From Oscillibacter sp. (GTDB lineage Bacteria; Bacillota; Clostridia; Oscillospirales; Oscillospiraceae): a stretch of DNA of 33,095 bases. Of the stretch, positions 7,453 to 18,496 are shown piece after piece. Within the stretch, counting starts at the first letter, position 1, and each line of letters begins with the position of its first letter. A program made the position numbers and the translations under genes. The stretch covers positions 1 to 33,095 of the forward strand of contig JAAVHC010000062.1 in the NCBI GenBank assembly GCA_014799925.1. The letters run 5' to 3'. The notes under the pieces are model-generated. The model saw nothing but the letters and a program-made list of their open reading frames with translations. It did no database searches and was not told the origin of the DNA.

Positions 7453-8127
7453 ATGAAAATATTGGTGGTGGACGACGAGCGGCTGCTGGTAAAGGGCATC
7501 AAGTTCAACCTGGAGAACGAGGGGTATCAGGTGGAGTGCGCCTATGACGGGGCGGCGGCGGTGGAGCTGGCGCGGAACGGGGGCTTTGATCTCATCATCC
7601 TGGATCTGATGATGCCGGAAATCGACGGGCTGGAGGCGTGTATGCGCATCCGGGAGTTTTCCAACGTGCCCATCATTATGCTGACCGCCCGAAGCGAGGA
7701 CACGGACAAGATCATCGGCTTTGAGTGCGGAGCGGACGACTATATTACCAAGCCCTTCAATATTCTGGAGCTGAAGGCCCGGATCCGCGCCATGCTCCGC
7801 CGGGCCTCGGCCGGCGCCCAGGGGAAGAGCCAGATCACGGTGGGCGGCCTGACGCTTGATACCGAGCAGCGGGTGGCCATCCGGGACGGCGAGGTGGTGG
7901 AGCTGACCGCCAAGGAGTATGACCTGATCGAACTGCTGATGAAGAATCCCAGGCGGGTATACAGCCGGGAGAATCTGATGAACGTGGTGTGGGGCTACAG
8001 CTACGCCGGGGACTACCGGACGGTGGACGTCCATATCCGCCGCCTGCGGGAGAAGCTGGAGCGGCAGCCGGCGGAGCCGGAATATATTCTGACCAAGTGG
8101 GGAGTTGGCTACTATTTTAAGGGGTAG
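7453..8127 (+). CDS. OmpR/PhoB-family response regulator
   Basis: A 224-residue regulator. The receiver domain occupies residues 1-120: acidic pair D8/D9-like VVDDER, phospho-acceptor aspartate in LIILDLMMPEIDG (about D51), the conserved threonine in MLTAR and lysine in YITKPF. The C-terminal winged-helix DNA-binding domain covers about 130-224 (LTAKEYDLIELLMKNP; VDVHIRRLREKLE; GVGYYF). A strong AGGAGG ribosome site precedes ATG 7453. The next gene is its membrane kinase, with overlapping reading frames, then a GerMN lipoprotein. The trio is divergent from the D,D-carboxypeptidase gene, which suggests but does not prove control of envelope genes. Confidence 0.93.
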   Translation: MKILVVDDERLLVKGIKFNLENEGYQVECAYDGAAAVELARNGGFDLIILDLMMPEIDGLEACMRIREFSNVPIIMLTARSEDTDKIIGFECGADDYITKPFNILELKARIRAMLRRASAGAQGKSQITVGGLTLDTEQRVAIRDGEVVELTAKEYDLIELLMKNPRRVYSRENLMNVVWGYSYAGDYRTVDVHIRRLREKLERQPAEPEYILTKWGVGYYFKG

Positions 8128-11351: not shown

Positions 11352-11373
11352 GCTTTGATACTGTTTCCCGATG

Positions 11374-11464
11374 ATAGGTATCAAGGGTTACCGTGCGGCG
11401 GACTAAGGCAGCCTGCGCGGAAAAGAGCGGGATTGGCCGTCCGCCCAGGACCTTTTTCTTTCAA
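11374..11464 (+). repeat. 91-bp dispersed repeat, copy A
   Basis: This unit begins ATAGGTATCAAGGG and ends TTTTTCTTTCAA. It is followed after two bases by copy B with only a few differences, and an inverted copy is present 8 kb away at 19720-19808. It contains no open frame common to all copies, so it is a noncoding repeat rather than a gene fragment. Confidence 0.85.
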
Positions 11465-11466
11465 TT

Positions 11467-11557
11467 ATAGGTATCAAGGGTTACCGTGCGGCAGACTAAG
11501 GCAGCCTGCGCAGAAAAGAGCGGGATTGGCCGTCCGCCCAGGACCTTTTTCTTTCAA
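11467..11557 (+). repeat. 91-bp dispersed repeat, copy B
   Basis: Second tandem copy, offset by 93 bases from copy A. Its end runs into the palindrome CTTTTTCTT/AAGAAAAAG, which is also kept at the far end of the inverted copy at 19.7 kb. The blaI promoter starts 14 bases downstream, so the repeat abuts a regulated promoter. Confidence 0.85.
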
Positions 11558-11570
11558 GAAAAAGTATCAC

Positions 11571-11599
11571 TTGACAATGTCATGTAACTGTGCTATCCT
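11571..11599 (+). promoter_or_regulatory. Promoter of the blaI-type operon
   Basis: Consensus TTGACA (11571-11576) and TATCCT (11594-11599) with a 17-base spacer, 38 bases before the BlaI-type start codon. A BlaI-like operator overlaps the -35 box and a second lies just after the -10. Confidence 0.85.
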
Positions 11600-11617
11600 C
11601 TCAGCATGACAATGTAA
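11572..11617. promoter_or_regulatory. Pair of BlaI-type operators
   Basis: TGACAATGTCA at 11572-11582 is a perfect 11-base dyad over the -35 box, and TGACAATGTAA at 11607-11617 repeats it at the transcription start. BlaI and MecI bind TACA/TGTA-type dyads, usually two per promoter, so this is a standard self-repression layout for the gene that follows. Confidence 0.75.
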
Positions 11618-11636
11618 TGCAAAAGGAGGACGGCGC

Positions 11637-12023
11637 ATGAAAGAGAAACAACTGCTGACCAACACGGAGTGGGAGGTCTGCGAGTGCCTGTGGGAGGCGT
11701 CCCCCCTGACCCTGACCCAGATCGCCAGCCGTCTGACCGAGCGTACCGGCTGGACCCGCAGCACCGGGGAGACGCTGGTGCGGCGGATGGCGGATAAGGG
11801 ATTGCTGCGCTGGGAACAGGGGGCGAAGGCGAAGCTGTACTCCCCCACCGTGGCGCGGGAGGACGCGGTTTTGCGGGAAACCAGGGGATTTTTGCGGAAG
11901 GTTTTCGGCGGCAGCGTGGGGCTGCTGGTGAACACCATGGCGGAAAACGAGGAACTGAGCCGGGAGGAGATCGACCAGCTCTATGAGGCTCTGCGCAAGC
12001 TGGAGGAAAAGGGCCATGATTGA
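11637..12023 (+). CDS. BlaI/MecI-family transcriptional repressor
   Basis: A 128-residue winged-helix repressor with the family pattern: LTNTEWEVCECLWEASPLTLTQIASRL opening, recognition helix WTRSTGETLVRRMADKGLLRWE, then the dimerisation helices. BlaI proteins are cut by their membrane partner BlaR1 when a signal is sensed; the cleavage region in known BlaI is an Asn-Phe bond in the C-terminal domain, and here a similarly placed hydrophobic stretch (RKVFGGSVGLLVNTM) is present. A strong AAGGAGG ribosome site precedes ATG. The stop overlaps the M56 peptidase start (ATGATTGA), so the pair is translationally coupled. It probably represses its own operon through the two dyads upstream. Confidence 0.92.
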   Translation: MKEKQLLTNTEWEVCECLWEASPLTLTQIASRLTERTGWTRSTGETLVRRMADKGLLRWEQGAKAKLYSPTVAREDAVLRETRGFLRKVFGGSVGLLVNTMAENEELSREEIDQLYEALRKLEEKGHD

Positions 12024-15000
12024 GTGGATCGTTACGTCTTCCGTCTTGATTTTGCTGGTTGCATTCCTGCGGGTCATCATAAAGGGCCGGGTCAATCCCC
12101 GGCTGCGGTACGCGCTGTGGGGACTGGTGCTGCTGCGGCTGCTGATTCCGGGGACCCTGTGGGAAAGCCGGGCCAGCGTCATGACGCCCGTGGCCGCCCG
12201 GCAGGAGTACCAGGCCATAGAAAACATCCCAAGCTATATCAAGACGCAGCCGGACGGATGGATTGAGATCGGAACCCACGGCGGCCAGAACTGGACATCC
12301 ATTCCGCCGGAGAGGCTCCAGCCCGGAAGCCCGGTCCACTACGACTGGCCGCCGGTGGAAGCCGAGCTGGAAACACTGCGGAAACAGGTCAGCATCCGGG
12401 ATGCTTTTCTGTGGGCCTGGCTGGCCGGCAGCGCCGTCGTGGGCGTGTTCCTGCTGGCGGTGAACCTGAAATTCAACCATAATCTGAAGAAAAACCGCCG
12501 GACGCTGGAACAGTACCGGGGCCGCTGGGTTTTTACCATGGATGGCCTGCCGACCCCCTGCCTCTTTGGTCTGTTCCGTCCTGCTGTCTATCTGACGCCG
12601 GATGTGGCGGCGGATGAGAGCGCAAAGGCGCACGTCCTGGCCCATGAATACGCGCACTTCCGCCAGGGGGACCACGTATGGTCCTTCCTGCGGGGCGTAT
12701 GCCTGGCCCTCCACTGGTACAACCCGCTGGTCTGGCTGGCGGCGTACCTGAGCCGCCGGGACTGCGAGCTGAGCTGCGACGAGGGCGCGGTGCGCCTTCT
12801 GGGCGAGGATTCCCGGGCGGACTATGGCCGGACGCTGGTGGAGCTGGTCGCACGGCGGACCACGCCGAAGGACCTGGTCTGCTGCGCCACCACCATGACC
12901 GGCGGCAAGTCCGCGCTGAAAGAGCGCATCGCTTTGCTGGTGAAGCGCCCCAGGACCACGGTCTGGATGGCCTGCGTCGTGGCGGCGGCGTGTATCGTGT
13001 TCGCGGTCTGCACCTTCACCGGCGCGGCGGCGGATGAGACGGAACCGGAGCCGGAAGCGGACGCCCCGGAGGAAGTTCTGCCCGCGAATGACGAGAACCT
13101 TCCGGACGTTGAGGACCTGCCTACCGCTGTGGATTGGGACGCGCCCATCTGGGTACTGGACCGGATATCGGGGCGGGCGCCGGGGGAGTATATTTTTATC
13201 TATCAGGACGCTGAGACCGGCGTGAACTACCTGCGCAAGGGGGACTATCTTCAGGAGCTGGAGACCCGGAACATGTACGACCGGCAGGGATACAACGACA
13301 TAGAGATGACCTGCCGGGACCTGGATGGCGACGACGCGGAGGAGATCGCCATCGTCTACCATATCACATCCGGGACCGGTGTGGAGAGCCGGGAGCTTCT
13401 TATCTGCGATTGGGACGGCCAGCGGTGGACGGAACGCCACCCGGAAGGGGTGGTCTCTTCGCTGGTCCGGGATTTCCAGGACAGCTACGAGATTTCCACA
13501 ATATGGTCAGACCCCGGCATGGGGGACACGCCTGGGCCGTCCATCCTGTCGGTGAACTGGGACAGGCTGTCGGTCGCGTTCGAGGTCAGCCCCTGGCTGC
13601 TCAAAACCGGCGGGACGCTGGAGTGTTCGCTGGACGAGTGGCAGTACACATACTATGTCGGACGGGACGGCGGCATCGAGCTTATGATTGCTGGCGAGGC
13701 CAGCTATGCGGATTCCCCGGTGGAGGACAGCAGGCAATTCTGGTACGCCTGCCCGGTGGCCTACCGGGCGGACGGGACCTTCGCCGTGGGACCGGGGGCG
13801 CTGAACACCAGGCCGCCGGAGGACCTGCCCACCGAACCGATGGACCTCAGCCGCCCCGCGGAGGAGCAGGGGCCATGGCTGCTGCTGGCGGAGACTCCGG
13901 GTTTTGACATCGCCCTTTACCGCAGCGCGTGGGACAACCAGCACGTCTATCTCCGCGTGACCAATGGGAGCTTCCAGGCTTTTAACCGGGACCTGAGCGG
14001 GATGGAGCTGCTGCCCGCTCTGGAGCTGGTGGAGGGAGACGCGGACCTGACGGTGCGGGCCCTGTACCGGCGTTACGAGGGGACTTACTTCAACGGCACG
14101 TCCTATGAGCCCGGCGTGGTGGCCGACCAGGCGCTCTATCTCTGGAGCGCGGCGGAAAAATACTGGCGGGAAGCTTATATCACCACCCAGCCCGCCCAGC
14201 TGACGGAGGACCTCCCGGTTATAGCGGAGCTGCCCGGAATCTTCGGGATATATGATTGGGACGCACCCATGTGGTGGGTCGGAACGGTGCGGGAGGAGGG
14301 CATCTCCCTCTACTGGGCGCAGTACGAGGAGCAGATGTACCTGCGGTACGGGGACCACATCCAGAGGATCGACGACGAGCTGGGGTGTGAGTGGCTGCCG
14401 GAGCTGTATTTCGAGGACCTGGACGATGACGGCGGCCGGGAGCTGCTGATCCACTATCACACCGGCCACGGCACCGGCGTACACACCGATTATATCGCGG
14501 TCCACGAGTGGGACGGCGAGAGCTGGCACGGGACCCAGCATACGCCGGACGAGACGATTGAGGTTTTCAACAACGACCTTGATCTTATCTTTGAATGTTA
14601 CGAGGACGGCACGGCCTTTATCAAGAACCGTTATTCGTCCATCCTGCTGGACCTCTCCCACCTCTGGGAGGCCGGTTACTGGGAGTCCTCGCCGAAAAAG
14701 TGCAGTCTGGTCCCATATTGGACCGAGTATGCCTATCAGAACGGGCAGATCACGCTGACCATTGCCGGCGGGCTGTGGGACGAAGAGGAACGCCTCTATG
14801 GTTACGCCTTCGAGTATGTCTGCCCTGTCGGATATATGGAATACGGTGATGAGGGTTACCTCGGAAGCGGGTCCGGCGTTCTGCAAAGCGAGTACGCGGC
14901 GGAGCGGTCGCTGCCGGAGCTCACGGACACCTGGCGGAAGGTGCTGGAGAAAATACTGACCGAGTGCGACCCGGATTATCCCGACGCCAACGTTTACGCC

Positions 15001-15507
15001 GTTCATGATGTGAACGGCGACGGCGAGGACGAGCTGATCGTAATCTGGTATTCCCCCCTTCCGCCTTCGGTGTACAGTCGGAACACGGAAGTCTACGACG
15101 CCAAGGGCAAGGGAATATTTGGAGCTCTTGGAGAGCTGACCTTCTACAGTAACGGCGCGATCTCCACACCCTGGAGCCACAACCAGGGCCCGGCCTGCGC
15201 CATGTGGCCCTACGACCTGTACGTGTGCGACGCCTACACCTATAACGGCAACCACAGCTTCCTCTATTCGGAGGTGGGCAGCGCGCGGGCCAGGAGCGAT
15301 GACGCGCCCGGTTTTGAGGACGTGGCTTACGCCGACCTGGACGGGGACGGGGTGGTCTACTATATCGACGGGGACGCCTTTCACGAAGAAAACCCGGTGG
15401 ACAACGCAGTCTATGAGGCATGGCTGGACCAGTATCTGGCCGGAGCGCAGGTCCTGCCGGTCCAGTACTTCCCCCTGACGGAGGATACCGTTTCATCAAT
15501 GCATTAA
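12016..15507 (+). CDS. BlaR1-like M56 membrane peptidase with a novel, very large ectodomain
   Basis: A protein of 1163 residues, about twice the length of BlaR1 or MecR1. Residues 1-310 are the M56 membrane metallopeptidase: helices at about 4-22 and 33-48, a helix at 133-152, the zinc motif HEYAH (210-214) and ELSCDEGAV (251-259). A last helix (315-337) leads to an exported region of about 820 residues. The penicillin-binding sensor of BlaR1 is absent: no STxK active site is found. Instead there are two related modules starting WDAP-W at 374 and 748, each with an acidic loop (DLDGDDAEE, DLDDDGGRE) followed by YH-x4-5-GTGV and WDG-x-W, a non-repeated block of about 120 residues between them, and a C-terminal module (about 978-1163; DVNGDGEDE, DLDGDGVVY) shared with the next lipoprotein. 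The acidic loops look like calcium-binding FG-GAP/EF-hand-type repeats. The signal sensed is unknown. Confidence 0.88.
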   Translation: MIEWIVTSSVLILLVAFLRVIIKGRVNPRLRYALWGLVLLRLLIPGTLWESRASVMTPVAARQEYQAIENIPSYIKTQPDGWIEIGTHGGQNWTSIPPERLQPGSPVHYDWPPVEAELETLRKQVSIRDAFLWAWLAGSAVVGVFLLAVNLKFNHNLKKNRRTLEQYRGRWVFTMDGLPTPCLFGLFRPAVYLTPDVAADESAKAHVLAHEYAHFRQGDHVWSFLRGVCLALHWYNPLVWLAAYLSRRDCELSCDEGAVRLLGEDSRADYGRTLVELVARRTTPKDLVCCATTMTGGKSALKERIALLVKRPRTTVWMACVVAAACIVFAVCTFTGAAADETEPEPEADAPEEVLPANDENLPDVEDLPTAVDWDAPIWVLDRISGRAPGEYIFIYQDAETGVNYLRKGDYLQELETRNMYDRQGYNDIEMTCRDLDGDDAEEIAIVYHITSGTGVESRELLICDWDGQRWTERHPEGVVSSLVRDFQDSYEISTIWSDPGMGDTPGPSILSVNWDRLSVAFEVSPWLLKTGGTLECSLDEWQYTYYVGRDGGIELMIAGEASYADSPVEDSRQFWYACPVAYRADGTFAVGPGALNTRPPEDLPTEPMDLSRPAEEQGPWLLLAETPGFDIALYRSAWDNQHVYLRVTNGSFQAFNRDLSGMELLPALELVEGDADLTVRALYRRYEGTYFNGTSYEPGVVADQALYLWSAAEKYWREAYITTQPAQLTEDLPVIAELPGIFGIYDWDAPMWWVGTVREEGISLYWAQYEEQMYLRYGDHIQRIDDELGCEWLPELYFEDLDDDGGRELLIHYHTGHGTGVHTDYIAVHEWDGESWHGTQHTPDETIEVFNNDLDLIFECYEDGTAFIKNRYSSILLDLSHLWEAGYWESSPKKCSLVPYWTEYAYQNGQITLTIAGGLWDEEERLYGYAFEYVCPVGYMEYGDEGYLGSGSGVLQSEYAAERSLPELTDTWRKVLEKILTECDPDYPDANVYAVHDVNGDGEDELIVIWYSPLPPSVYSRNTEVYDAKGKGIFGALGELTFYSNGAISTPWSHNQGPACAMWPYDLYVCDAYTYNGNHSFLYSEVGSARARSDDAPGFEDVAYADLDGDGVVYYIDGDAFHEENPVDNAVYEAWLDQYLAGAQVLPVQYFPLTEDTVSSMH

Positions 15508-15525
15508 AACACGGAGAGAAAAAAC

Positions 15526-16377
15526 ATGAAAAAGAAACTGATTCTGACAGCGGCGCTCTGCGTCCTGCTGTGCGCCCTGACCGCCTGCGGCGGAACGCGG
15601 AAGGAGACCGCATTACCGGAGGCCGGCACGCCTCCCCAGACCCGGACGGAACCGCCGGAGGCCCCGGAAGCCTCCGAGCCCTCGGATATCCAGCCTGTGG
15701 AGCCCTCTATTCCGGAGGAAACGCCGGAACCGGTGAAAAGCGAAGAGCCCGCCATCCATCAGACGGGCTGGTCCGGGATGCTGACGGCTTACCAGCAGCT
15801 TCTGGAGGAGCTGTACCAATCCTATGACGACCCGGAGCGGTTCCGGTATGAGGACGGTCCCAGCTTCGCGGTGTACGACGTGGACCGGGACGGGACGGAG
15901 GAGCTGCTTATACAGGACCCGGTGAGCGAGTTGGTACAAATTTACGGGTATAACAGCGCCGGGAAGGTTTACCTGGAGCTGGAGGAATACTCCAATCTGT
16001 ACTACTACGACAACGGCGTCATCGAGGTTGGCTGGAGCCACAGCCAGGGCGCGGCCGGCGACAAGCTGTGGCCCTACAATGTGTACCGGTACAACCCCGA
16101 CACGGGCGTATACGATTGGGTCGCCGCCGTGGACGGCTGGGACAGGGCGCTGCGGGAGATTTTTGGCGGCAAAGCTTTCCCGGCGGAGATCGATCTGGAC
16201 GGGGACGGGTTCATCTACTACGTCATCACCGAACCGGGCGGCTACGCGCCGGATTACGGCGAGGCCATGGATTACGCGGCCTATGAGGACTGGCGGCAGT
16301 CCTGGTTACAGGGCGCGGAGCCCAGCGGAATGCCGCTGCTGCCTCTGGTCCGGGAGAATATCGAGCAATTGACGTAA
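15526..16377 (+). CDS. Lipoprotein with an acidic-loop module shared with the M56 receptor
   Basis: A 283-residue lipoprotein: signal peptide with lipobox LTAC (C21), a Pro/Glu-rich spacer of about 60 residues that would cross the wall, then a folded module from about residue 80. The module aligns by eye with the last 185 residues of the preceding receptor: FAVYDVDRDGTEELLI against YAVHDVNGDGEDELIV, DNGVIEVGWSHSQG against SNGAISTPWSHNQG, LWPYNVYRYN against MWPYDLYVCD, and DLDGDGFIYYV against DLDGDGVVYYI. A GGAGAG ribosome site precedes ATG 18 bases after the receptor stop, and a terminator follows, so it is the third gene of the operon. It may be a ligand-binding partner, decoy or regulated target of the receptor. 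No enzymatic motif is seen. Confidence 0.82.
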   Translation: MKKKLILTAALCVLLCALTACGGTRKETALPEAGTPPQTRTEPPEAPEASEPSDIQPVEPSIPEETPEPVKSEEPAIHQTGWSGMLTAYQQLLEELYQSYDDPERFRYEDGPSFAVYDVDRDGTEELLIQDPVSELVQIYGYNSAGKVYLELEEYSNLYYYDNGVIEVGWSHSQGAAGDKLWPYNVYRYNPDTGVYDWVAAVDGWDRALREIFGGKAFPAEIDLDGDGFIYYVITEPGGYAPDYGEAMDYAAYEDWRQSWLQGAEPSGMPLLPLVRENIEQLT

Positions 16378-16398
16378 GAACAGCAGATTATGTAAGAA

Positions 16399-16439
16399 GC
16401 AAAGGATAGCGAAGGCCTTCAGCCTTCGCTATCCTTTGC
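16399..16439. terminator. Terminator hairpin of the blaI-type operon
   Basis: A perfect 18-bp stem (16399-16416 with 16422-16439) and 5-base loop, 22 bases after the lipoprotein stop. The following bases are only moderately T-rich (TTGTC). Confidence 0.85.
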
Positions 16440-16771
16440 TTGTCAAAATACTTGAAAAACGTGAGTGCGTTGGGGGAGCTCGAGGCGTTAGGCCGCCAGC
16501 GGCGGCCCCAGCTGTCGGGTCGCCGTTGGCGACCCACTAGGGGCGAAGCCCGCCTCGAATCGGATCTGCCGCCCCCGTGGGCTGGCTTGCGGCCAGCCTT
16601 AGCGCTAAAAGCGCCGCTTTGCGGCGCTTCACGGAACACCTGCAAAGCAGGTGTTCAGCGAGCAAAGTGAGGACTTTTGTGGAGGCATAGCCGGAACAAA
16701 AGTAACGGCGGCATTGGATTGTCAAAAAAGTCCGCTGGACTTTTTTGACAATCTGAGGACAGCGGGGGCTC
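16440..16771. other. Noncoding stretch packed with hairpins
   Basis: No credible gene lies between the operon terminator and the serine hydrolase. Instead at least eight inverted repeats follow each other. A closing stem CGAGGCG (16481-16487) with CGCCTCG (16551-16557) encloses three hairpins (16491-16507, 16517-16535, 16541-16551), making a multibranch fold. Further stems lie at 16580-16598, 16609-16629 (9 bp), 16634-16656 (10 bp), 16674-16702 and 16717-16753 (17 bp). The dense folding suggests a structured RNA or a composite repeat element. No known RNA family was recognised. Confidence 0.6.
16717..16753 (-). terminator. Terminator-like hairpin after the serine hydrolase gene
   Basis: A perfect 17-bp stem with a 3-base loop (16717-16733 with 16737-16753) contains runs of six A and six T. 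It lies 19 bases beyond the stop codon of the minus-strand hydrolase. A second imperfect stem (about 16755-16789) overlaps the last codons of that gene. Confidence 0.65.
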
Positions 16772-18496
16772 TCAGCCCTCGCTGTCCTCGCAAATGATTT
16801 CCGGCGCCAGTATCTGCCGCGTTTTGAAGAGGAGGAAGTCCTCCTCCGTTCCGCCGGCGGCAACCAGCAGCAGAGGCCGGTACAGCGGCGACTGCGCCGC
16901 CTGGCACAGCTTCCCGCCAACATAGGGAATCCCCGGCGTCTCCTCCTGCCGCAGGAGGAGGCGGCCGCCATCCCATATCAGCTTGATGATCCGGACGCAG
17001 GGCGTCTCAATAAAGTCCAGCCGGATGTAAAAGACGGGGCGCTCCTCCTCGTCATGGGTAAAGCGGCCCAGCGCCGCGGCCTGAAAGACATTCCCCCGGA
17101 AATCCAGCCGGGTCACCGCCGGACGGCCCAGGCCCACCGGCAGCCGGTACAGCGCGTCCGCCTCCCGGTAGATCAGCTCCGGCAGCTCTCCCTTGACGCT
17201 GACCGCCACGGAAACGACGCCGGCGGTGTAATTGTTATACAGCGCCTGAAGGGCCAGAGGCAGCAGCCCCACGGAAGCCGCCCGGTCGTCCCGGACCCGG
17301 AAGGACCGGTTCAGGAAGGGGTTCGCGCGGCTTTCCAGGCGCTCCGGCTCCCGGTGATAAAAGGAAAGCGCGCGGATCGTCTCCGCGAGGTCCGTCTGAG
17401 CGGCCTCATCCTCCGGCAGGAGGTCGGGAAAGGCCCCGCCGAAATAGCGGCTGACAATCTCAAAATACCGGCTCTCCTGGAAATCCGTGTCCGCCCCGGC
17501 GTGGGTCAGGACGATGATCCCGCTGTCCCGGAAGCCCAGCACATTCTGCCCCAGCATACCGTTGAAGAGGAAGGTGTTCTCATGACGGCCCACCCAGATC
17601 TGGTAGCCGTAGTCGAAGTCTCCCATCGTCTCCGGCGTTCGCGCGTGGGCGGTGGCCGCGGCGGCAATATACGATCGGGAGAGGAGCCGCCTGCCATGCC
17701 ACAGCCCGCCGTCCATCACCAGCTGGCCCAGCTTCGCCAGATCCTCCGGGCGGATGTAGAGGCCCCAGCCTCCCTTCTCGATCCCCTTGGGGCAGGTCTC
17801 CCAGTGGACGTCCGTGATCCCCATCGGGTCAAAGAGACGCTCCCGCAGAAATTCCGTCAGGCTCTTTCCGGCCTTCAGCCGGACAATGGCGGACAGCAGG
17901 TAGGTATTCAGGCTGTTATAGGCAAATTCCGTCCCCGGATCGTTTTTCGGCGCCGCGCCCAAAAACCGGCGGACCCAGTCCGCCTCCGTCAGGGCCTCCG
18001 CTTCCGTAAACAGCACGCCGGAGCGCATGGTCAGCAGGTCCTCCACCGTCATGCCCTTCAGCCGGCGGCGGAGATTCGTGGACCCGGCCTCGTCAAAAAT
18101 ATCCGCCACCGCATCCCGGACGGACAGCGCGCCGTCATCCACAAGCAGTCCAACCGCCAGGGAAACCACGCTCTTGCAGGCGGAAAAGGTGTATTTGACG
18201 GCGCGGAGATCCTGAGCGCCGTAAGACGCTTCGCAGACCACGTTTCCGCGGCGGAGAACCATCACGCTCTGCGTATACAGCTCCCTGCCCCGGCCCAGCT
18301 CCTCCAGGAACGCCTGGAGGAGGCGGGAGGAAATCCCCTGGCTCTCCGGCGTGGCGCGGGGGAAGGGCTGCTGCACGTCCCCCAGCTCTATGGCGGGCTT
18401 CTCCGCCGCGGCGGGGAGAAAAGGTTCGGTGGGCGTACGGGCGTCCAGAATGCGGGTAAGCAGCTGGAAGGTTCGGCTGGCAGTGGTAAGATTCAT
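16772..18496 (-). CDS. Class C beta-lactamase-type serine hydrolase with C-terminal extension
   Basis: A 574-residue protein. Residues about 45-400 form the beta-lactamase/AmpC/esterase fold: FSACKSVVSLA holds the SxxK pair S105-K108, FAYNSLN the YxN motif (Y193-N195), and the third motif region is near GIIVLTHAG. About 170 residues follow (from roughly 405) that resemble the C-terminal beta-barrel-like extension of some D-aminopeptidase or esterase relatives but were not identified. No signal peptide is visible, so it is probably cytoplasmic and not a classical resistance enzyme. Start: ATG 18496 with AGGGAG upstream. It converges on the blaI-type operon, which is notable given that family's link to beta-lactamases, but no BlaI-type operator was seen at its own promoter. 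Confidence 0.85.
   Translation of the reverse strand: MNLTTASRTFQLLTRILDARTPTEPFLPAAAEKPAIELGDVQQPFPRATPESQGISSRLLQAFLEELGRGRELYTQSVMVLRRGNVVCEASYGAQDLRAVKYTFSACKSVVSLAVGLLVDDGALSVRDAVADIFDEAGSTNLRRRLKGMTVEDLLTMRSGVLFTEAEALTEADWVRRFLGAAPKNDPGTEFAYNSLNTYLLSAIVRLKAGKSLTEFLRERLFDPMGITDVHWETCPKGIEKGGWGLYIRPEDLAKLGQLVMDGGLWHGRRLLSRSYIAAAATAHARTPETMGDFDYGYQIWVGRHENTFLFNGMLGQNVLGFRDSGIIVLTHAGADTDFQESRYFEIVSRYFGGAFPDLLPEDEAAQTDLAETIRALSFYHREPERLESRANPFLNRSFRVRDDRAASVGLLPLALQALYNNYTAGVVSVAVSVKGELPELIYREADALYRLPVGLGRPAVTRLDFRGNVFQAAALGRFTHDEEERPVFYIRLDFIETPCVRIIKLIWDGGRLLLRQEETPGIPYVGGKLCQAAQSPLYRPLLLVAAGGTEEDFLLFKTRQILAPEIICEDSEG

Follow-up and report, generated by a model that had tools for sequence, protein, structure and literature searches.

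The signalling pairs BlaI-BlaR1 and MecI-MecR1 (MEROPS family M56) combine a repressor and an M56 protease in one operon, and BlaR1 detects beta-lactams with a sensor that itself resembles beta-lactamases. Two other published systems are close to these. PetR/PetP of cyanobacteria is a BlaI-type regulator with a BlaR1-type protease that responds to copper and switches petE/petJ, according to the parts of the published accounts cited here (PMC7896320, PMC13421787). A Mycobacterium tuberculosis homologue of BlaR1 is an M56 protease described, in the cited part of its source, without the penicillin sensor domain or an equivalent of it (PMC9834060). Here we report an operon with the same two components in Oscillibacter sp. 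(GenBank assembly GCA_014799925.1, contig JAAVHC010000062.1, positions 1 to 33,095). The window, by which we mean that whole stretch of 33,095 nucleotides, contains the three genes of the operon on its plus strand, encoding a BlaI/MecI-type repressor, an M56 receptor protease and a lipoprotein.

The operon shares with the bla and mec systems the pairing of repressor and protease, the active-site residues (HExxH, Glu, Asp, Tyr and Arg), and alignable bonds for autocleavage and for cleavage of the repressor. It is unlike them in that the receptor has no detectable penicillin-binding sensor and carries instead a multi-module ectodomain of ~820 residues, in that the residue following the cleavage bond (P1') is Met rather than Phe, and in that a lipoprotein stands where a beta-lactamase or PBP2a would be. 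Just as the sensor of BlaR1 resembles beta-lactamases, the terminal module D of this receptor resembles its lipoprotein. PetR/PetP, as published, is also a BlaI/BlaR1-type pair with an input other than beta-lactams, so such an input is not new in principle, and PetR/PetP differs in answering copper and in its target genes. The M. tuberculosis protein is like the window receptor in lacking the penicillin sensor, whereas the window receptor has a large domain of another kind. We read the operon as a transmembrane switch that acts in one step, built like BlaI-BlaR1 but with a non-penicillin input and with a lipoprotein carrying a related domain as its output, and we give this reading a probability of roughly 0.55. 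A preliminary description had put the operon forward as a candidate for an undescribed signalling system. The chassis is known already, and the ectodomain and the mirror lipoprotein (one that shares a domain with its receptor) are a variant on a known design; in the open-licence literature searched, neither these two features nor the expansion of the family in Clostridia was found described.

The receptor protease and its repressor

The receptor matches Peptidase_M56 (PF05569) at 2.7e-42 over residues 3-308 (145.4 bits against a cut-off of 31). In an alignment of 54 M56 proteins of the genus, H210, E211, H214, E251, C254, D255, Y270 and R304 are among 12 invariant columns and D219 is nearly invariant; the active-site columns are likewise invariant in all 40 M56 proteins of a sample from the class. 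By alignment to PDB 8exp and by position, H210, E211, H214, D219, D255, Y270, R304 and E251 are the counterparts of BlaR1 residues, with E251 in the place of Glu242, presumably the third zinc ligand of BlaR1. The key residues given for BlaR1 in the cited part of its description are His201, Glu202, His205, Asp210, Asp246, Tyr261 and Arg294, and the autocleavage bond given there, Ser283-Phe284, aligns with T293|M294 of the receptor (PMC9834060). Judged by these residues the protease looks intact, as did its HEYAH motif in the preliminary description.

The repressor matches Penicillinase_R (PF03965) at 3.4e-26 (92.3 bits, cut-off 22.6) as well as the solved structure chains of the penicillinase repressor and MecI. 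The BlaI cleavage bond Asn101-Phe102 aligns with T100|M101. Phe at P1' is near-invariant in BlaI/MecI repressors, as stated in the cited part of PMC9834060, whereas the window repressor has Met101 at this position. Among 55 repressor-protease pairs of the genus, BlaI has Leu at P1' in 33, Met in 17 and Phe in 5, a count in which one pair appears twice on account of the broken L098 gene, and for which the BlaI column alone was used because the P1' assignment of the M56 loops is misplaced where a two-residue deletion occurs.

Operators and promoter

Both putative operators differ from the palindrome CATGACANTGTCATG by one mismatch and are spaced 35 bp apart, with a -10-like hexamer between them. 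No other place in the 2.97 Mb genome of this organism comes within one mismatch of the palindrome, and one further place has two; the pattern reversed, as a control, was found in three places. The pair is also present ahead of the orthologous operons of three relatives, at 35 bp in G008 and G009 (one mismatch in each site) and at 36 bp in G006 (one and two mismatches). Within the window alone such sites are not rarer than chance, since at three mismatches or fewer 20 of 100 shuffles reach two matches; the case for the operators therefore rests on genome-wide rarity and conservation, and we regard the two sites as putative BlaI self-operators. A promoter-like match, TTGACA-17-TATCCT, lies at 11571-11599 and agrees with 10 of 12 consensus positions, although by count such matches are not above chance (2 in the window versus 1.4 in shuffles). 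A 93-nt tandem duplication (97% identical, 11371-11556) ends 13 nt 5' of operator 1.

The promoters of other BlaI families in the genus have different repeated motifs, as judged by eye. One of these, the 16-bp motif TTGACAAACGTCTACC, has two occurrences in the window genome, both of them exact (controls 1 and 1): at G000:C47:9309-9324 (L009) it precedes a BlaI-M56 pair, and at G000:C38:43005-43020 (L022) it precedes an M56 gene with no BlaI frame nearby. The ectodomains of the C38 and C47 M56 proteins are related (phmmer ~1e-23), and a single repressor may serve both receptors. Downstream of the C47 M56 gene, after position 7539 (+) of L009, is a gene whose secreted product is rich in His and Cys and contains three repeats. 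The C47 M56 ectodomain has a His cluster as well, and the two proteins could form a metal system.

The ectodomain and the lipoprotein

The ectodomain is strongly acidic, with 18.8% Asp+Glu and a pI of 4.06, and its modules contain Asp-rich D-x-D-G-D-G loops. The earlier picture of acidic-loop modules was right in this respect and incomplete in another: module C is a duplicate of module A, B is distinct, and D has a homologue in the lipoprotein. Structure prediction makes modules B-D beta-rich. Asp-rich loops in beta-rich modules are shared with the FG-GAP/VCBS repeats (PF13517, PF01839), from which the ectodomain differs in that its scores fall under the Pfam cut-offs (P0001, P0002: PF13517 20.2 against 26.9 bits, PF01839 19.4 against 22.1 bits); the best score of this type in separate ectodomain stretches is 26.1 against 26.9 bits. 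A CarG-like fold (PDB 4o7j) is a tentative structural candidate.

No PF00905 transpeptidase match was found in the receptor by Pfam scan, whereas the same scan finds that domain at 1.7e-18 in a truncated protein from the order that resembles BlaR1. A search by motif order found no ordered series of SxxK, [SY]xN and K[TS]G in the receptor, which scores 85.7 bits against the BlaR1 model NF000326, under its 400-bit cut-off. Nor did the predicted structures, which cover B-D only, show a transpeptidase fold. The profile and motif results agree with the penicillin-binding domain being missing, as first described.

The lipoprotein begins with a hydrophobic signal segment ending in LTAC at Cys21. Its homology to receptor module D (32-33% identity, phmmer ~1e-18) bears out the earlier remark that the two match. 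When 65 M56 frames were compared with their neighbouring frames, a lipoprotein sharing a receptor domain was seen in the window, L068, L073 and L093, a count that is a lower bound because many of the compared stretches are short; one further domain match joins two tandem M56 genes. The L093 case (G009 C84; L093 with L154 3-2645 (-)) is a second, separate mirror, since the shared domain is unrelated to module D. There the gene order is BlaI, lipoprotein, M56, and over 176 aa the lipoprotein and the membrane-proximal module of the receptor share 65% identity.

A search of 295 genomes of the order (E 1e-10) detected module D in 5, and the module also forms the C-terminus of SLH surface proteins from another family. 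Proteins with a C-terminal module D are encoded in L149 (5719-8477 (-)), L150, L151 and L152; Pfam assigns SLH domains to the two L149 proteins, and the proteins of L150-L152 begin alike. Tandem pairs of module-D genes occur in L149 and L151.

Relatives of the receptor

Eight loci, the window included, have a receptor of this type or its tail. Ten loci from drafts labelled Oscillibacter, Oscillospiraceae or uncultured Clostridia are genus genomes already counted, so they are not independent. Three of the eight run off their contig upstream, and BlaI is upstream in all five that have DNA there (window, G008, G009, G006 and G002). A lipoprotein is downstream in four of the eight: the window, L068/G008 with a complete BlaI-M56-lipoprotein triplet, L073/G023 with receptor and lipoprotein, and L074/G020 with a receptor tail and lipoprotein. 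The preliminary description had held that absence of the arrangement from relatives would point to a chance fusion, and this recurrence argues that it is not one.

The outer part of the receptor varies among these loci. A second A/C copy is confined to the window, another membrane-proximal stretch is present in G009, G006, G005 and G002 and none in G008, module C is absent in G002, and in the draft genome G006 module D is split across two frames. G021 and G024 carry the modules in signal-peptide proteins without M56. Identity to the relatives is 77-90% for BlaI and 32-52%, with invariant residues, for modules B-C-D: a conserved chassis with a rapidly changing outer part. In G014 three M56 genes lie within 14 kb (L066 27-14127 (+)), two with BlaI directly upstream and two with module D.

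BlaI-M56 pairs in the genus, order and class

In the window genome 9 M56 genes score over the cut-off, alongside 8 BlaI genes, and all 25 genus genomes have M56 matches (3-13 each). For nine genus genomes 72 matches were tabulated, 10 of them in the window genome with one under the cut-off. Among the matches listed for these nine, 61 M56 frames were read, two of which are one broken gene (L098), and 55 of the 61 are preceded, at a distance of up to 1.2 kb, by a BlaI frame on the same strand. Domain scans covered 54 frames, leaving out both L098 frames, those at contig ends (L083, L112, L067 and L122) and a partial one (L097). None of the 54 proteins matches the transpeptidase profile, and neither does the L067 protein, scanned separately. 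What the 54 have are Big_2 (3), BNR_2 (3), M23 (2), FG-GAP_3 (2), LytR_CpsA_Psr (1), DUF3298 (1) and a few other domains. The M56 ectodomain of L067 (2-2827 (-)) has DUF3298 over cut-off with a weak PdaC match, a pair of domains also present in RsiV, a lysozyme receptor, and L024 of the window genome (4790-7378 (+)) encodes an M56 protein that ends in an M23 peptidase domain (101.7 bits).

A search of 196 genomes of the class found an M56 match over cut-off in 105, and one match from each of the first 40 genomes with a match frame of at least 450 aa was taken as a sample (L157-L196). None of these 40 proteins matches the transpeptidase profile; their domains include DUF4825 (3), Cu_amine_oxidN1 (3), M23 (2) and SpoIIP (1), and 38 of the 40 stretches have a BlaI frame. 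Among 295 genomes from the order, at least 1 matches the BlaR1 model NF000326 at E 1e-100, a lower bound since up to four first-look candidates were scored in the rows listed, and none of the candidates scored reached the model's own cut-off. A penicillin sensor is thus exceptional among the M56 proteins sampled. That its absence sets this operon apart, as the preliminary description implied, is not supported.

Layout of the operon and its flanks

The BlaI and M56 genes overlap by 8 nt, and 18 nt separate the M56 gene from that of the lipoprotein, which has GGAGA ahead of its start. The inverted repeat beyond the operon (Table 1) is a possible transcript end, although a terminator scan of the window did not return it. 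A convergent gene (16772-18496 (-)) belongs to the PF00144 beta-lactamase family (105 bits) and has no operator-like site nearby.

Table 1. Features of the operon, in window coordinates
Feature	Position	Strand	Basis or remark
Operator 1 (putative), CTTGACAATGTCATG	11570-11584	.	covers -35 hexamer 11571-11576; kept in G006, G008, G009
Operator 2 (putative), CATGACAATGTAATG	11605-11619	.	immediately 3' of -10-like hexamer 11594-11599
BlaI/MecI-type repressor, 128 aa	11637-12023	+	profile match
Candidate BlaI cleavage bond T100|M101	11934-11939	+	alignment with known BlaI bond
M56 receptor protease, 1163 aa	12016-15507	+	profile match, active-site residues
Zinc motif HEYAH, residues 210-214	12643-12657	+	motif, alignment
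Candidate autocleavage bond T293|M294	12892-12897	+	alignment with BlaR1 Ser283-Phe284
Last hydrophobic segment, residues 316-334, precedes ectodomain	12961-13017	+	hydropathy
Ectodomain module A, duplicate of C	13126-13812	+	sequence comparison
Ectodomain module B	13891-14265	+	sequence comparison
Ectodomain module C	14254-14901	+	sequence comparison
Ectodomain module D, lipoprotein homologue	14938-15504	+	sequence comparison
Lipoprotein, 283 aa, lipobox Cys21	15526-16377	+	its module D at 15781-16374
Perfect 20-bp inverted repeat	16397-16441	.	19 nt 3' of lipoprotein stop; without T run

A proposed switch and its alternatives

In the switch that we propose, BlaI would bind both palindromes around its own promoter and keep the operon off. 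The receptor would sit in the membrane with both termini and the ~820 acidic residues outside and its protease in the cytosol, a topology carried over from BlaR1, and, again as in BlaR1, the active site would be blocked by a loop, here the one with T293|M294. An extracellular ligand on the ectodomain would free the protease, which, by the same analogy, would cut BlaI at T100|M101. The operon would then yield more receptor together with the lipoprotein and its relative of the receptor's terminal domain. A related ligand is probably what the lipoprotein binds or handles, which would give a feedback loop like that of beta-lactamase in the bla system. The genes, the active-site residues, the operators, the homology of module D and the recurrence in relatives are established at the level of sequence, and the lipoprotein as an output handling a related ligand is our proposal. 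Since the genome has no further site at one mismatch or fewer outside this operon, the lipoprotein is the only non-regulatory product seen. The ligand may be a surface or wall glycan, which is a guess, and the Asp loops of the modules may be of calcium type.

Several results weigh against this switch or limit the support for it. Structure prediction gave no fold for module A. Of the expected four membrane helices of the receptor, three are over a simple hydropathy threshold, the fourth segment being located by BlaR1 alignment alone. The distances of BlaI and M56 proteins correlate (r 0.90 over 55 pairs, with 0 of 2000 permutations as high), which speaks for the switch, but common descent alone could produce this. 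No lipoprotein was found in at least 2.4 kb downstream of the receptor in G009, G006, G005 and G002, and mirror lipoproteins were few among the 65 M56 frames compared, many of them in short stretches. Finally, the two D modules are of different subtypes: they are 33% identical to each other, whereas receptor D is 59% identical to that of G009 and the lipoprotein 71% to that of G008. This disfavours an identical ligand.

The four receptor loci without a lipoprotein show it to be dispensable for sensing, which counts against a role as a co-receptor that presents the ligand or as a brake that competes with the ectodomain, the useful output being elsewhere. A distant output would also sit poorly with the want of any further site at one mismatch or fewer in the window genome. 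This alternative draws on the lipoprotein being co-encoded with the receptor and having a domain in common with it, on the gene order at G009 C84, and on an extra one-mismatch operator site in G006 at C16; we think it unlikely, without its being far-fetched. An indirect response to beta-lactams or wall damage, by way of a wall fragment or a partner protein, would accommodate the wall-related M23, SpoIIP and LytR_CpsA_Psr domains of other M56 proteins and the convergent PF00144 gene. However, PF00144 is a broad family, the gene has no operator (a window scan to three mismatches gives operators 1 and 2 only), and no penicillin domain was detected in the receptor. The M. tuberculosis BlaR1 homologue is a precedent, being linked with a beta-lactamase despite having no sensor domain, in the cited part of its description (PMC9834060). 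On balance we consider an indirect response improbable. A third alternative, that the BlaI-M56 pair merely carries the ectodomain as a drifting tail with little or no function, would fit the variable module make-up, but the frame is open over 1163 codons and modules B-C-D are kept with invariant residues in other genomes, and we give this explanation very little credence. For the operon as a whole, the earlier observation is confirmed, and its interpretation as a non-penicillin sensing switch is partly supported.

Implications

We suggest tentatively, and at a little under even odds, that BlaI-M56 pairs are a general clostridial signalling class, in which a constant chassis carries exchangeable ectodomains under family-specific operators, several to a genome, and in which the sensor can be mirrored by a co-encoded lipoprotein handling the same kind of ligand. 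The beta-lactam sensing of BlaR1 would then be one specialisation. If the chassis does carry many ectodomains in Clostridia, it would give these bacteria a way of sensing their environment that has drawn little notice, and M56 and BlaI genes should then not be counted as resistance genes by default. The mirroring of receptor and lipoprotein would also indicate which inducer to try, namely the ligand of the soluble lipoprotein domain.

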